32,066 nucleotides of DNA from an uncultured Mycoplasmatota bacterium (GTDB lineage: Bacteria > Bacillota_I > Bacilli_A > RF39 > UBA660), in contig CAMBYP010000009.1 in the NCBI GenBank assembly GCA_945872435.1, positions 1 to 32,066 of the forward strand. Reading direction: 5' to 3'. Positions 20,878 through 25,983 of the stretch are shown here, piece by piece (position 1 is the first letter of the stretch; the number at the start of each line of letters is the position of its first letter). The translations under genes and the position numbers were made by a program. The notes below the pieces were generated by a model. That model was not told the origin of the DNA, did no database searches, and saw only the letters and a list, made by a program, of their open reading frames with translations.

Positions 20878-22161
20878 ATGCAGAAAAAATCTTTGATGCC
20901 AGCTGATACTTATATTGTGACTTCTAAAACAATTTTAGCGAATGAAGATCATAAAATTTTGACTAGTTTATATCAACCAATCGTTGGTGCTATGTCTATT
21001 AGTCTATATTTTAGTTTATGGTCTTATTTAGATGGTAGTGAATGTCTTTCATTAGAATGGACCCATCATCAATTGATGGCTAATATGGGAACGAAATTAA
21101 CTGATATAGAAATGGCACGTAATAAATTGGAAGCAATTGGACTTTTAAAAACATATTTTAAAGAAGGGCCGATGAATCATTATATTTATCAATTGTATGC
21201 ACCACTTTCTAGTGCTGAATTTTTTCATAATCCTATTTTAAACACTACTTTACAGAATAATGTTGGGAAAAAAGAATATGAAAAACTATTAGAACGTTAT
21301 CAGTGTCCAAAATTGCCACTGCATGAATTTCAAGATATTACATGTAAATTTAGTGATGTTTTTGAAAGTATTTCTGCTTATCAAGTAAACGAAGATAATA
21401 ATTTAAAACAAAGAGTAAAAAGAGGAATTGAATTAACTTCAAAAATTGATTTAGAACATGTATTGTCTATGGTTCCAGAGGATTACTTACAACAATCTAG
21501 TATCACGCGTGATATGAAAGATTATATTTATAAATTATCTTTTATTTATGATTTTGATGATGAATCGTTACTTCGTATTTTAATGAATTCTATCAATGAA
21601 AAGAAAATGATTGATAAAGAGTTATTAAAAAATCAGGCGAGAAATTTTTATCGTTTTGAAAATCAAGGAAAAATGCCTACATTAGTTTATAAAAGTGAGC
21701 CAGAATTAAAAAGAATTAGTAATCATGCACCGATGACGAAAAAAGCAAAATTAATTTACCAATTTGAAACAACAACACCACATGATTTTTTGGCATTAAA
21801 ATATGGTGGAGTAGAACCAACGAAACAAGATTTGATGATTTTAGAGTATTTATTAGTAGAGTTGAAATTGAATCCTGGGGTTGTGAACGTTTTAATTGAC
21901 TATGTTTTAAAGATTAATCATAATAAATTAACAAGAGCATTTATTGAAACAATTGCTGGACAGTGGTGTCGTGAAAAAATTGAAACGGTAGAAGATGCAA
22001 TGAATCAATGTATTAATGAAAAAAAGAGAAAAGAAGCAACTCCAAAGATTATAAAGCAGTCTGTAAAAAAACCAAAATGGTTTGATGAAAACCCTAAAAT
22101 AGAACTTGCTACTCCAGAAGAAATGAAGGAAATGGATGAATTTTTAAAGCAATTTGAATAG
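20878..22161 (+). CDS. dnaB: Replication initiation and membrane attachment protein DnaB
   Basis: Bacillus-type DnaB features (ILTSLYQPIVGAMSISLYFSLWSYL; C-terminal DnaD-like domain) and adjacency to dnaI. Confidence 0.9.
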   Translation: MQKKSLMPADTYIVTSKTILANEDHKILTSLYQPIVGAMSISLYFSLWSYLDGSECLSLEWTHHQLMANMGTKLTDIEMARNKLEAIGLLKTYFKEGPMNHYIYQLYAPLSSAEFFHNPILNTTLQNNVGKKEYEKLLERYQCPKLPLHEFQDITCKFSDVFESISAYQVNEDNNLKQRVKRGIELTSKIDLEHVLSMVPEDYLQQSSITRDMKDYIYKLSFIYDFDDESLLRILMNSINEKKMIDKELLKNQARNFYRFENQGKMPTLVYKSEPELKRISNHAPMTKKAKLIYQFETTTPHDFLALKYGGVEPTKQDLMILEYLLVELKLNPGVVNVLIDYVLKINHNKLTRAFIETIAGQWCREKIETVEDAMNQCINEKKRKEATPKIIKQSVKKPKWFDENPKIELATPEEMKEMDEFLKQFE

Positions 22162-23089
22162 AGGTGAAGACATGAAAACAATGAAAGAATCAATAAAAAT
22201 AAGCCCATTAAAAAATTTAAATGAAGTTCTTGACAAAGAATATAATGAGGCTTTAAAAAATCCTGTTTTTGAAGAAATTGTTACAAAGTTAAAAATAGAT
22301 CATGATATTTTAAAGAGTTATACTTCTTCTTTATTAGATAGTGCTGAAGAGTATGAACATTGTAAAAATTGTAAGAATTTATTAGGATGTAAAAATAAGA
22401 TTACGGGTCATTGTTATTTGCCAATGAAAAATGGAAATGGTTTAGAGTTTGGTTATAAGGCTTGTAAAAAATATCAAAAAAAACAAGAAGAACAAAAATA
22501 TTTAGAAAATATGCATTTATTTCATGTCAGTGATGAATTATTACATGCTTCTATGAAAGATATTTATAAAGAAGATCGTAAACGTTTTCCTATTTTTAAA
22601 TGGGAACAACAATTTTTAAAAAAATTCGAGAAGGATATTCATCAAAAAGGGCTTTTTTTACATGGATCCTTTGGAAGTGGAAAGAGTTATATATTAGCTG
22701 CTTTATTTCATGAATTAGCGAAAAAAGGAAATCAATGTGCAATTTTGTTTTGGCCTGAATTTTTAAATCATAATAAAGGGTTGTACCCATCTGAGTTTCA
22801 ACTTGTATTAGAAAAAATGAAAAAAGTTCCGCTTTTATTGATTGATGATATTGGTGCTGAAAATACAACGGCATGGAGTAGGGATGATGTGTTGATGCCT
22901 CTTTTACAATATCGTATGGATCATAAATTAGCGACATTTTTTACATCAAACTTAAATTACGAAGAATTGGAAGAACATTTTAGTATTTCCAAAAATAAAG
23001 TGGATATTGTAAAAGCACGACGTATTATGGAACGTATTCGATATTTAACTGATGAAATTGAATTAGTTAGTGATAATTTAAGAAATTAA
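22154..23089 (+). CDS. dnaI: Primosomal protein / helicase loader DnaI
   Basis: N-terminal Cys-rich CKNCKNLLGC, AAA+ Walker A HGSFGSGKSYILAAL, LLIDDIGAE Walker B. Confidence 0.94.
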   Translation: MNRGEDMKTMKESIKISPLKNLNEVLDKEYNEALKNPVFEEIVTKLKIDHDILKSYTSSLLDSAEEYEHCKNCKNLLGCKNKITGHCYLPMKNGNGLEFGYKACKKYQKKQEEQKYLENMHLFHVSDELLHASMKDIYKEDRKRFPIFKWEQQFLKKFEKDIHQKGLFLHGSFGSGKSYILAALFHELAKKGNQCAILFWPEFLNHNKGLYPSEFQLVLEKMKKVPLLLIDDIGAENTTAWSRDDVLMPLLQYRMDHKLATFFTSNLNYEELEEHFSISKNKVDIVKARRIMERIRYLTDEIELVSDNLRN

Positions 23090-23106: not shown

Positions 23107-23135
23107 TTGACAAATGAATGTGCTTATGTTAGAAT
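23107..23135 (+). promoter_or_regulatory. Sigma-A promoter for the large non-coding RNA
   Basis: TTGACA (23107-23112), 17-nt spacer, TAGAAT (23130-23135). Confidence 0.8.
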
Positions 23136-23141
23136 GCTATC

Positions 23142-23762
23142 TAGAAATGGCGCATTATTCTAGTCAATTTCTTTTATTAGGAAGACGGGGCTAAAAATCC
23201 GTTAAAGAGCACATCTGTGAAACATTTGGTGCTTGCTTCATACGCCCAGTTTGGGGTGAGTGCTGGATGGATGAAATATTGGGCGATCGTAATGGCATAC
23301 GACCTCGACCCAATATTTCGTGGAGACCTATACTTGTTATTAGCCTATACATGTTTTCATTGACGGACTAGTAACGACTTAGGATAAAACCTACTTTGCG
23401 GGGCAACTTGTGAGTAGTGTAGCTTGTCTTGCGTGATATTTGGGGATAAAAGATCTACATAAAGTGACAATGGCCAACGTTATTTTATGATTGCTTTTTG
23501 AAACAAGTGTTGCAAAAAAGAATTAGTAATAAAAGAATTGTTGAGGAAATCTCCTAGAGTGTTTTGTTAACATAGGATTGCAGTGTACACTCAGTGGTAA
23601 TCAAGTCATATACTAGGTGACAGTATATCAAAAACTTTAAAGGGGAACCGCTATTTGGTAACGAATAGTAGTTTTTGGGGAAATCCTACTTGACCTAAGG
23701 TGCAAAGTTTACTATGTTAATAGCCATTTAAAAGTAAAAATGAGGGGCGGTTGCTCCTTTTA
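23142..23762 (+). ncRNA. ole: Candidate OLE (ornate large extremophilic) RNA
   Basis: ~620 nt non-coding, less AT-rich than the surrounding sequence, strong promoter, multiple helices (11-bp stem 23273-23283/23309-23319), 3' hairpin, immediately followed by an OapA-like membrane protein; size matches OLE (~610 nt). Confidence 0.85.
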
Positions 23763-23779: not shown

Positions 23780-24391
23780 ATGAAACGATATAGTAAGGTG
23801 AAAGATGAAATTGCTTCATTAAAGCGTGAAGATCAAAAAAGAGCAAATAAATTAAAAGAAAAACAAAGAAAAAATAAAAAATGGATTATACAAATTTTTA
23901 TTATGGCTTTTTTTATTTCTGTAATGTTTTCATTTGTTTCTGAAACATTTATTCCAAAACTTTCACTTGTATTTGGAATTTTGTTAATTGTTGTTTTTAT
24001 TGCATTAGGAATTGTTTTTGATATGATTGGTGTAGCTGTGACAGCAAGTGATGAAAAACCTTTTCATTCTATGAGTGCTAGAAAAGTAAGAGGTGCAAAA
24101 GTAGCTGTTCTTTTGAAAAAAAATGCAGATAAAGTTGGTAGTTTTTGTAATGATGTGATTGGAGATATTTGTGGTGTAGTATCTGGTAGTGCAGGAGCTA
24201 TTATTGCGAGCTCGATTGCAAATCAAACTTCTTTATCACCATTTCTTCTTTCTTTAATTGTGACTGGTTTGATTGCTGCTTTTACAATAGGAGGAAAAGC
24301 GATTGGAAAATCAGTAGCAATTAATCAATGTAATATGATTTTATATGAAGTCGCTAAAGTAATATCTTATTTTTATCATCCTAAAAAATAA
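23780..24391 (+). CDS. oapA: OLE-associated membrane protein OapA (DUF21/CNNM-like pattern)
   Basis: 203 aa, Lys-rich N-terminus, 3-4 TM helices, GVAVTASDEKPFHSMSARKVRGAKVAVLLKKNADKVGSFCNDVIGDICG including DxxxD motif DVIGD; directly downstream of the candidate OLE RNA. Confidence 0.85.
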   Translation: MKRYSKVKDEIASLKREDQKRANKLKEKQRKNKKWIIQIFIMAFFISVMFSFVSETFIPKLSLVFGILLIVVFIALGIVFDMIGVAVTASDEKPFHSMSARKVRGAKVAVLLKKNADKVGSFCNDVIGDICGVVSGSAGAIIASSIANQTSLSPFLLSLIVTGLIAAFTIGGKAIGKSVAINQCNMILYEVAKVISYFYHPKK

Positions 24392-24451
24392 GAATTACTT
24401 TTTTTCTTGTATTTCTAACTATAGTTCGATATAATGATTGCGGTGAAGTTT

Positions 24452-25162
24452 ATGCAGAGATATTTTGCTTTAAAAAAAGAAAAAAATTATTTTATTCTTC
24501 CAAATGATGATTATCATCATATTTTAAGAGTCATGAGAGGAAAAGAAAATGAGCATATTGAAGTAGTGTATGAAAATTGTGTATATTTATGTGCTTTAAA
24601 AAATGTAGAACAGTCTTTAACAATTGAAATTGATTCTTTATTAGAAAAAGGTGTAAAAGAACGTGAAATGATATTTTGTATTCCATATTTAAAAGAAACC
24701 AAAATGGATTTTATTCTTCAAAAGGGTACTGAAATGGGAGCAAGCATGTTTATTTTATATCCTGCAACATTTAGTATGGTAAAAATAGATGATAAAAAAT
24801 TACCTAAGAAATTAGAACGATGGAATCGAATTTTAAAAGAGGCAAGTGAACAGTCAAAACGAACTAATATTCCTCAAATTCAAACAATTTCTCATTTACG
24901 TGATTTAAAAAATATGACAGGTGTTAAGTTTTTGTGTAGTACACGTGAAAAAGAAAAAACTATTAAAAAATTTTTGCAATCACAATCTAATTGTGATAAA
25001 CTGATAGTAGTAATTGGTCCTGAAGGAGGACTATCTGAAGCAGAGGAAAAACAATTAAATGAAATTGGTTTTGAAAGTATTACTTTAGGAAATCGCATTT
25101 TACGAGTAGAAAGTGTACCACTTTTCGTTTTAAGTTGTTTAAATTATGAATTTATGGAGTGA
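24452..25162 (+). CDS. rsmE: 16S rRNA (uracil1498-N3)-methyltransferase RsmE
   Basis: DDYHHILRVMRGKENEHIEV; QKGTEMGAS; VVIGPEGGLSEAEEKQL; LGNRILRVES. Confidence 0.95.
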   Translation: MQRYFALKKEKNYFILPNDDYHHILRVMRGKENEHIEVVYENCVYLCALKNVEQSLTIEIDSLLEKGVKEREMIFCIPYLKETKMDFILQKGTEMGASMFILYPATFSMVKIDDKKLPKKLERWNRILKEASEQSKRTNIPQIQTISHLRDLKNMTGVKFLCSTREKEKTIKKFLQSQSNCDKLIVVIGPEGGLSEAEEKQLNEIGFESITLGNRILRVESVPLFVLSCLNYEFME

Positions 25163-25983
25163 TTAGTATGAATATAATAAATTCTTTTGTTCATAGTGAA
25201 TTATTTTTTTATGTTCTGATTATTTTATTTGTTGTTGTTTTAGCAATCTTTGGAGTCGTTGTATATATTGAATGCCGAAAGTTAAAAATTAGCGAAGCAC
25301 AACAGGATATTGAAAGATTAAAGAAAAAAGAAAATGCACCAATAGAAATGGAAAGCCCAAAAAAAGAAGAACCAATAGAACCAAATGTGCAACAACAAAT
25401 CGATTCTCAAATAGAAGATGATGAAATTGAAATATTAGAAGAAAAATCAAAAGAACAAGAAGAAAATTTAGAAAATACATCTTCCTTAGAAATTGAAAGA
25501 TTACTTGCTCGTATGCAAGAAGATTTGGAGGAAGAAAAAGAAAAGACACCAGAATGTTTTGAAAAGGAACAAGAAGAACAAGCAATTATTAGTTATGAAG
25601 AATTGGTTCGTGCAGCTCGAAATCAAGAAAATATGGATGTTGATAGTCAAACTCCGATTAGTAATAAAGAATTAGAAAAACAAATGGAAAAAATGAAGAA
25701 AAAAGAACAAGAAGAATTTACTAAAAAGGAAGGATTTCATACAAGTCAATTTATATCTCCAGTATATGGAATTCAAAAAGAAAAGAAAGCAATGCCTAAT
25801 TTAAAGCAGGAATTAACTCAGTTTCAAAAAGAATTTCAGTTAGATATAAATTCTGCAAATCATGAAAATATGCAAGATTTTTCTATGTTAGAAGAAATTA
25901 CACAAGAAAATGAAGATAATGATGTAAATAAAAATGTTGAATTTTTAGATTCTTTGAAAGAATTTAGAAAAAATTTAGAGTAG
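25159..25983 (+). CDS. Hypothetical membrane-anchored acidic/coiled-coil protein
   Basis: N-terminal TM LFFYVLIILFVVVLAIFGVVVYI followed by long Glu/Lys-rich region. Confidence 0.75.
   Translation: MISMNIINSFVHSELFFYVLIILFVVVLAIFGVVVYIECRKLKISEAQQDIERLKKKENAPIEMESPKKEEPIEPNVQQQIDSQIEDDEIEILEEKSKEQEENLENTSSLEIERLLARMQEDLEEEKEKTPECFEKEQEEQAIISYEELVRAARNQENMDVDSQTPISNKELEKQMEKMKKKEQEEFTKKEGFHTSQFISPVYGIQKEKKAMPNLKQELTQFQKEFQLDINSANHENMQDFSMLEEITQENEDNDVNKNVEFLDSLKEFRKNLE

Follow-up and report, generated by a model that had tools for sequence, protein, structure and literature searches.

OLE RNAs are among the largest structured bacterial RNAs whose biochemical function is unknown. Fernando & Breaker collected 2,822 OLE RNAs across Bacillota in 2024, including the gut clades RF39 and TANB77, reported that OapB and OapC are missing in RF39, and left the species with variant OLE out of further protein analysis (PMC11332333). 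In H. halodurans, OLE is linked with Mg2+, cold and alcohol phenotypes and shows membrane localisation (PMC11332333, PMC9723947, PMC12265935).

The window analyzed here, a DNA stretch of 32,066 nt from an uncultured gut bacterium, possesses an OLE RNA and oapA. Gut bacteria are anaerobes, and the original suggestion that the locus, if its host were an ordinary mesophilic or gut Bacilli lineage, would carry OLE beyond its extremophile and anaerobe setting did not hold. OLE RNAs of gut clades were already published in 2024, and as the RF39 OLE and its lack of OapB and OapC were reported there, the window locus adds to an already known class (PMC11332333). It resembles the OLE of H. halodurans and Clostridium in having the full-length structure with the P4 A-rich loop, the k-turn strands, the palindromic P9.3 loop and domain 2, and in having oapA directly downstream. 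It differs from the H. halodurans type in its host, a gut lineage with a genome of ~1 Mb, and in the absence of OapB, OapC and the CCUCC mimic. The clade of the window is very likely the same as that of RF39 variant 2 (PMC11332333), and OapB and OapC are missing in both; variant 2 has neither P7 nor P8, whereas the window RNA has P7, P8 and a long P9.

Identity, promoter and fold of the window RNA

Rfam cmscan of the whole window found OLE (RF01071) at 23131-23743 on the forward strand with 412 bits (E 6.6e-118) against a cut-off of 50 bits, and the match covered model positions 1-616 of 616. These covariance-model bounds give a length of 613 nt, and the mature 5' end is predicted near 23142. 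OLE is present once in the host's draft genome, which measures 1.07 Mb and is 94% complete. The original prediction had proposed an OLE locus from a block without plausible ORF, richer in G/C than its surroundings, placed between a near-consensus promoter and a 3' hairpin, with dnaI upstream and a small polytopic membrane protein directly after it. All these features were recovered. Across all six frames of the 613 nt no open stretch exceeds 60 codons, and the G+C content is 37.2% compared to 27.7% for the window, exceeding 99.7% of same-sized stretches. The promoter, TTGACA-N17-TAGAAT, has 11/12 consensus matches; the hairpin is GAGGGGC-GGTT-GCTCCTT with a T-rich tail; the membrane protein has 203 aa (23780-24391); and dnaI is located at 22154-23089 on the forward strand (NCBIfam NF006505, 251 bits, over cut-off). 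With the match spanning the full model, covariance-model evidence confirms the window RNA as a genuine OLE RNA of full length. Another RNA class (ROOL, GOLLD, RNase P or tmRNA) or faulty assembly could also be expected to give a large, G/C-rich stretch of non-coding DNA followed by a hairpin. Both are extremely improbable. The only large RNA in the whole-window scan was OLE, all remaining matches being tRNAs, so that the covariance-model result already refutes another RNA class; the same arrangement with matching neighbours recurs in two independent assemblies (L002 and L003), which rejects an artefact.

The OLE promoter is situated at 23107-23135 on the forward strand, with TTGACA at 23107-23112, a 17-nt spacer and a TG-extended TAGAAT at 23130-23135. 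It is the best-scoring promoter site of the region, and from its position the transcript start is predicted near 23142, the start given in the original prediction. Among 28 full-length family sequences, window included, 27 have a promoter scoring 9/12 or better at the corresponding position and 24 have one of 10/12 or better, nearly all of these 24 with an extended -10, while the shuffle means per site were 7.7-8.5. A terminator-like hairpin with a T-rich tail is located between OLE and oapA (23742-23759, forward strand), and a similar hairpin with a T-run was found just 3' of OLE in 13 of 30 loci compared to 0.3 expected from shuffles. The ole cluster of H. halodurans is described as polycistronic (PMC12265935), whereas the window OLE has a strong promoter of its own. 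We infer that OLE here would form its own transcription unit, and as the H. halodurans cluster is polycistronic, such an independent unit would be a feature of this lineage.

Of the 153 pairs in the model, the window RNA forms 141 as standard pairs, compared to 39-45% when the partners are slid. Covariation was analyzed in the same 28 sequences, the window and 27 relatives which are 66-89% identical to it, aligned from sequence only without fitting to structure. When the Rfam structure was applied to this alignment, 87% of cells were paired, and sliding reduced this to 37-46%. Double-sided changes were observed at 110/153 pairs, far over controls, and the covariation score was 0.422 compared to 0.182 for shuffled alignments, none of 500 shuffles reaching the observed score. 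This pattern of substitution shows purifying selection on the OLE structure, as read from the alignment.

Individual elements of the known fold were also located, all on the forward strand. The P4 hairpin (23184-23203) carries the A-rich loop GCUAAAAA at 23190-23197, and in the 28 sequences 91% of its cells are paired with double changes at 4/6 pairs. By sequence evidence the A-rich L4 dimer-contact loop CUAAAAAUC is present. This loop is described as the A-A dimer contact, and the OapA site is assigned to the nearby P2/P4a (PMC12286853, PMC9723947). The k-turn region is represented by its J4a/5 strand (UGUGAAAC, 23216-23223), whose UGAA positions are at least 90% conserved in the 28 relatives, and by its J6/7 strand (GUGGAGACC, 23320-23328), with GAGAC at least 90% conserved; the involvement of J6/7 in the k-turn is described (PMC12286853). 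Both strands are conserved although no L7Ae/OapC gene was detected, which agrees with cryo-EM work in which the RNA formed the k-turn by itself (PMC12286853). The P9.3 loop bears the palindrome GGCC at 23472-23475, corresponding to the loop through which the two RNAs of the OLE dimer make a self-complementary kissing contact (PMC12286853). Among 35 aligned OLE sequences this palindrome is GGCC in 19 and AGCU in 6, the outer two bases changing together. The 3' part of domain 2 (23566-23721), composed of long-range stems and the P12/P13 hairpins (helices 14-20 of the covariation analysis), is the most strongly retained portion of the RNA and is complete even in the compact OLE described below.

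OapA and its pairing with OLE

The 203-aa protein encoded 3' of the RNA (23780-24391, forward strand), for which an OapA-like identity had been proposed, was confirmed as OapA by profile, DxxxD motif and predicted fold, and by its co-occurrence with OLE. Its gene starts 37 nt past the OLE model end. Residues D125 and D129 form the DxxxD motif, by which OapA is distinguished in the literature (PMC11332333), and are invariant in 21 sequences including Alkaliphilus. The AlphaFold2 model (pLDDT 84.6) has long helices at 2-60, 63-89, 116-150 and 154-182, and as a predicted structure it agrees with the class description of a ~20-kDa protein with four TM helices, DxxxD and a CNNM-like fold. In the PDB fold search the four best matches were all CNNM/CorB/CorC membrane domains (probability 0.97-1.00, best E 0.002), the MtCorB/CorC Mg2+ transporters among them, and no credible matches were found beyond this group. 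The likeness to the MpfA/CorC/CorB (CNNM) Mg2+ exporters is visible by fold only, the sequence search of PDB with OapA finding no relative, and the same likeness is already reported for H. halodurans OapA. Unlike these exporters, OapA has no CBS and CorC domains, possesses DxxxD and matches Pfam CNNM weakly, under the Pfam cut-off. As Pfam CNNM misses about half of the OapAs, a custom OapA profile was used for detection.

The distribution of the pair was analyzed in 242 genomes of the host's order. Both OLE and OapA were found in 142 genomes and neither in 96, with 2+2 discordant (Fisher p 1e-62); the two thus occur together in 142 of the 146 genomes which have either one. At least two of the four discordant genomes are contig-end artefacts. 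In G162 the 3' end of an OLE remains at a contig end, and in G180 the contig stops just after OLE. In G142 only 142 nt of contig precede oapA and an OLE match is missing there, while in G034 an OLE is present with hairpins and T-runs after it and OapA was not found by the custom profile. These counts, taken with the searches for OapB and OapC given below, show joint inheritance of OLE and OapA at the level of gene content, without OapB or OapC.

The ole and oapA genes are usually adjacent, with a median start-to-start distance of 603 nt. With OLE immediately preceding oapA and a terminator-like hairpin separating the two, the RNA might alternatively be a 5' leader that acts only in cis on the oapA mRNA and controls it through the terminal hairpin in the manner of a giant riboswitch. 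This is improbable, since both genes are kept in 16 genomes where they lie >1 kb apart and in two where they lie on different contigs (G003, with OLE on C3 and OapA on C12, and G195), favouring a trans partnership over a leader; in the literature on H. halodurans, OLE is a trans-acting RNP.

The reading best matching the evidence, with a probability of about 0.93, is a functional OLE-OapA locus in an uncultured gut Bacilli lineage with small genome, probably RF39. An RNA of ~600 nt would be made from its own promoter, two of its loops, the A-rich one of P4 and the palindromic one of P9.3, would mediate its dimerisation, and OapA, a membrane protein with CNNM-like fold, would be its docking site. 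The resulting membrane-bound RNA-protein particle may tune the handling of cations, most likely Mg2+, and the tolerance of stress, as its H. halodurans counterpart does. We infer this dimerisation, membrane docking, and Mg2+ and stress role of the window OLE by analogy. The working core in this lineage would be the RNA and OapA, with the k-turn serving as an RNA structural element and not as a dock for OapC. Against a functional locus stand the transfer of function from a distant bacterium and the 98/242 order genomes (~40%) which live without an OLE match.

Missing partners and compact OLE RNAs

Partner genes were searched in the order sample and in 59 genomes of the host's family (38 with OLE and 21 without). 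OapC (L7Ae family, PF01248) was found in 0/59 family genomes and in 7/14 controls (B. subtilis and six others), and OapB in 0/242 order genomes by a profile built from the hits of a 7k9b fragment, these absence calls being made on draft genomes whose completeness is mostly about 90-95%. A bait sequence for OapB, whose best PDB match is OapB 7k9b, gave 0/59 in the family. The real OapB 7k9b fragment found OapB in 4/6 other OapA-bearing genomes (Alkaliphilus and three more) and did not find it in the host genome. The bS21 gene is present in the host (35 bits) and in 56/59 family genomes. In H. halodurans the binding of bS21 is mapped to a CCUCC anti-Shine-Dalgarno mimic (PMC12054373). This P6 mimic was found in 0/35 OLE RNAs and is missing from the Alkaliphilus OLE too; bS21 may bind the OLE of this clade in another mode. 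Among the components of the H. halodurans-type RNP (OapA, OapB, OapC and bS21), neither OapB nor OapC nor a bS21 accompanied by the mimic was thus found.

These losses in a reduced genome, together with the ~40% of the order lacking an OLE match, might suggest that the window RNA is a decaying relic whose function is lost. Such decay is very improbable: the match is full-length at 412 bits, 141/153 pairs are formed, covariation is strong with continued compensatory base changes, the promoter is conserved and oapA is intact. Where OLE is lost the losses are clean, OLE and OapA vanishing together.

In the order sample, OLE is full-length in 95 genomes and shorter in 45. A much reduced form, termed compact OLE, was found in two related genera, at L115:1663-2566 (G035) and L116:1669-2569 (G077), coordinates including OapA. 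The two matches have 378-381 nt (~380 nt, about 345 nt mature) and 134-139 bits, reach both model ends (1 to 616) and are 90% identical to each other. P5, P6, P7 and P8 are deleted and P9 is shortened, and with them the k-turn, the bS21/OapC region and the L5-L6 dimer contacts are lost. The P4 loop CUAAAAAUC, a P9 hairpin with UGAUCA (GAUC palindrome) and the whole domain 2 are kept. An intact OapA of 172 aa is encoded directly 3', and judged by eye, TTGACA and a TG-extended -10 are present at the equivalent place. As aligned to the model, the compact OLE has naturally lost the greater part of domain 1. Published OLE variants have P7-P9 shortened only, or P7 and P8 lost (PMC11332333). The compact OLE goes beyond both of these variants 1 and 2 and is the strongest new lead, with two closely similar sequences so far. 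It is probable, with some reserve, that the OLE particle of this order has shrunk to OapA and an RNA transcribed from its own promoter, the compact form in the sister genera representing the limit.

A full-length OLE without two of the partners that the model species is believed to need, and its ~380-nt relatives, are natural deletions which can show what RNA parts and proteins are dispensable for the core function of OLE. If the compact OLE is real and active, it defines a minimal functional core, and most of domain 1 is accessory. In the consulted literature on OLE, reports of a full-length majority in the order, of OLE loss without gain of an MpfA type, or of the compact form were not found.

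Magnesium genes, neighbourhood and distribution

An anticorrelation of OLE and MpfA is reported in the literature. In the family, a full CNNM (MpfA-like) domain was found in 1/21 OLE-negative genomes, and replacement by MpfA therefore does not explain the OLE losses in this clade. The MgtE importer was over cut-off in 6/59 family genomes, and gene content thus gives no sign of the Mg2+ link. All six are OLE-positive (6/38 compared to 0/21), which is suggestive but not significant (p = 0.08), and MgtE was rejected as an OLE-correlated Mg2+ gene. By analogy, an Mg2+-linked role of OLE in the host is slightly favoured.

The original prediction placed the locus beside primosome genes. The adjoining dnaI is real, and this context is restricted to the closest relatives, being conserved only in L002 and L003/L084 and partly in L037; in most relatives the ole-oapA pair adjoins other genes. 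The context being so local, it says little about a primosome function. Downstream lies an rsmE-like 16S rRNA methyltransferase gene (24434-25162, forward strand; PF04452, 140.6 bits), followed at 25159-25983 by an acidic low-complexity protein of 274 aa without Pfam or NCBIfam match, which is likewise flanked by rsmE and mtaB in the closest relatives (L003, L004 and L037).

In a class sample of 397 genomes, 37 of 38 OLE matches were within the host's own family and one (G590) in another family. The draft genome G229 has two different full-length OLE RNAs (L118:1733-2325 and L119:1296-1892), 65% identical and each with its own oapA, representing either a mixed bin or true paralogues. A second OLE copy was also observed in G025 (L117:1456-1924); it is cut by the contig end and shares 64% identity with the complete G025 copy (L086).
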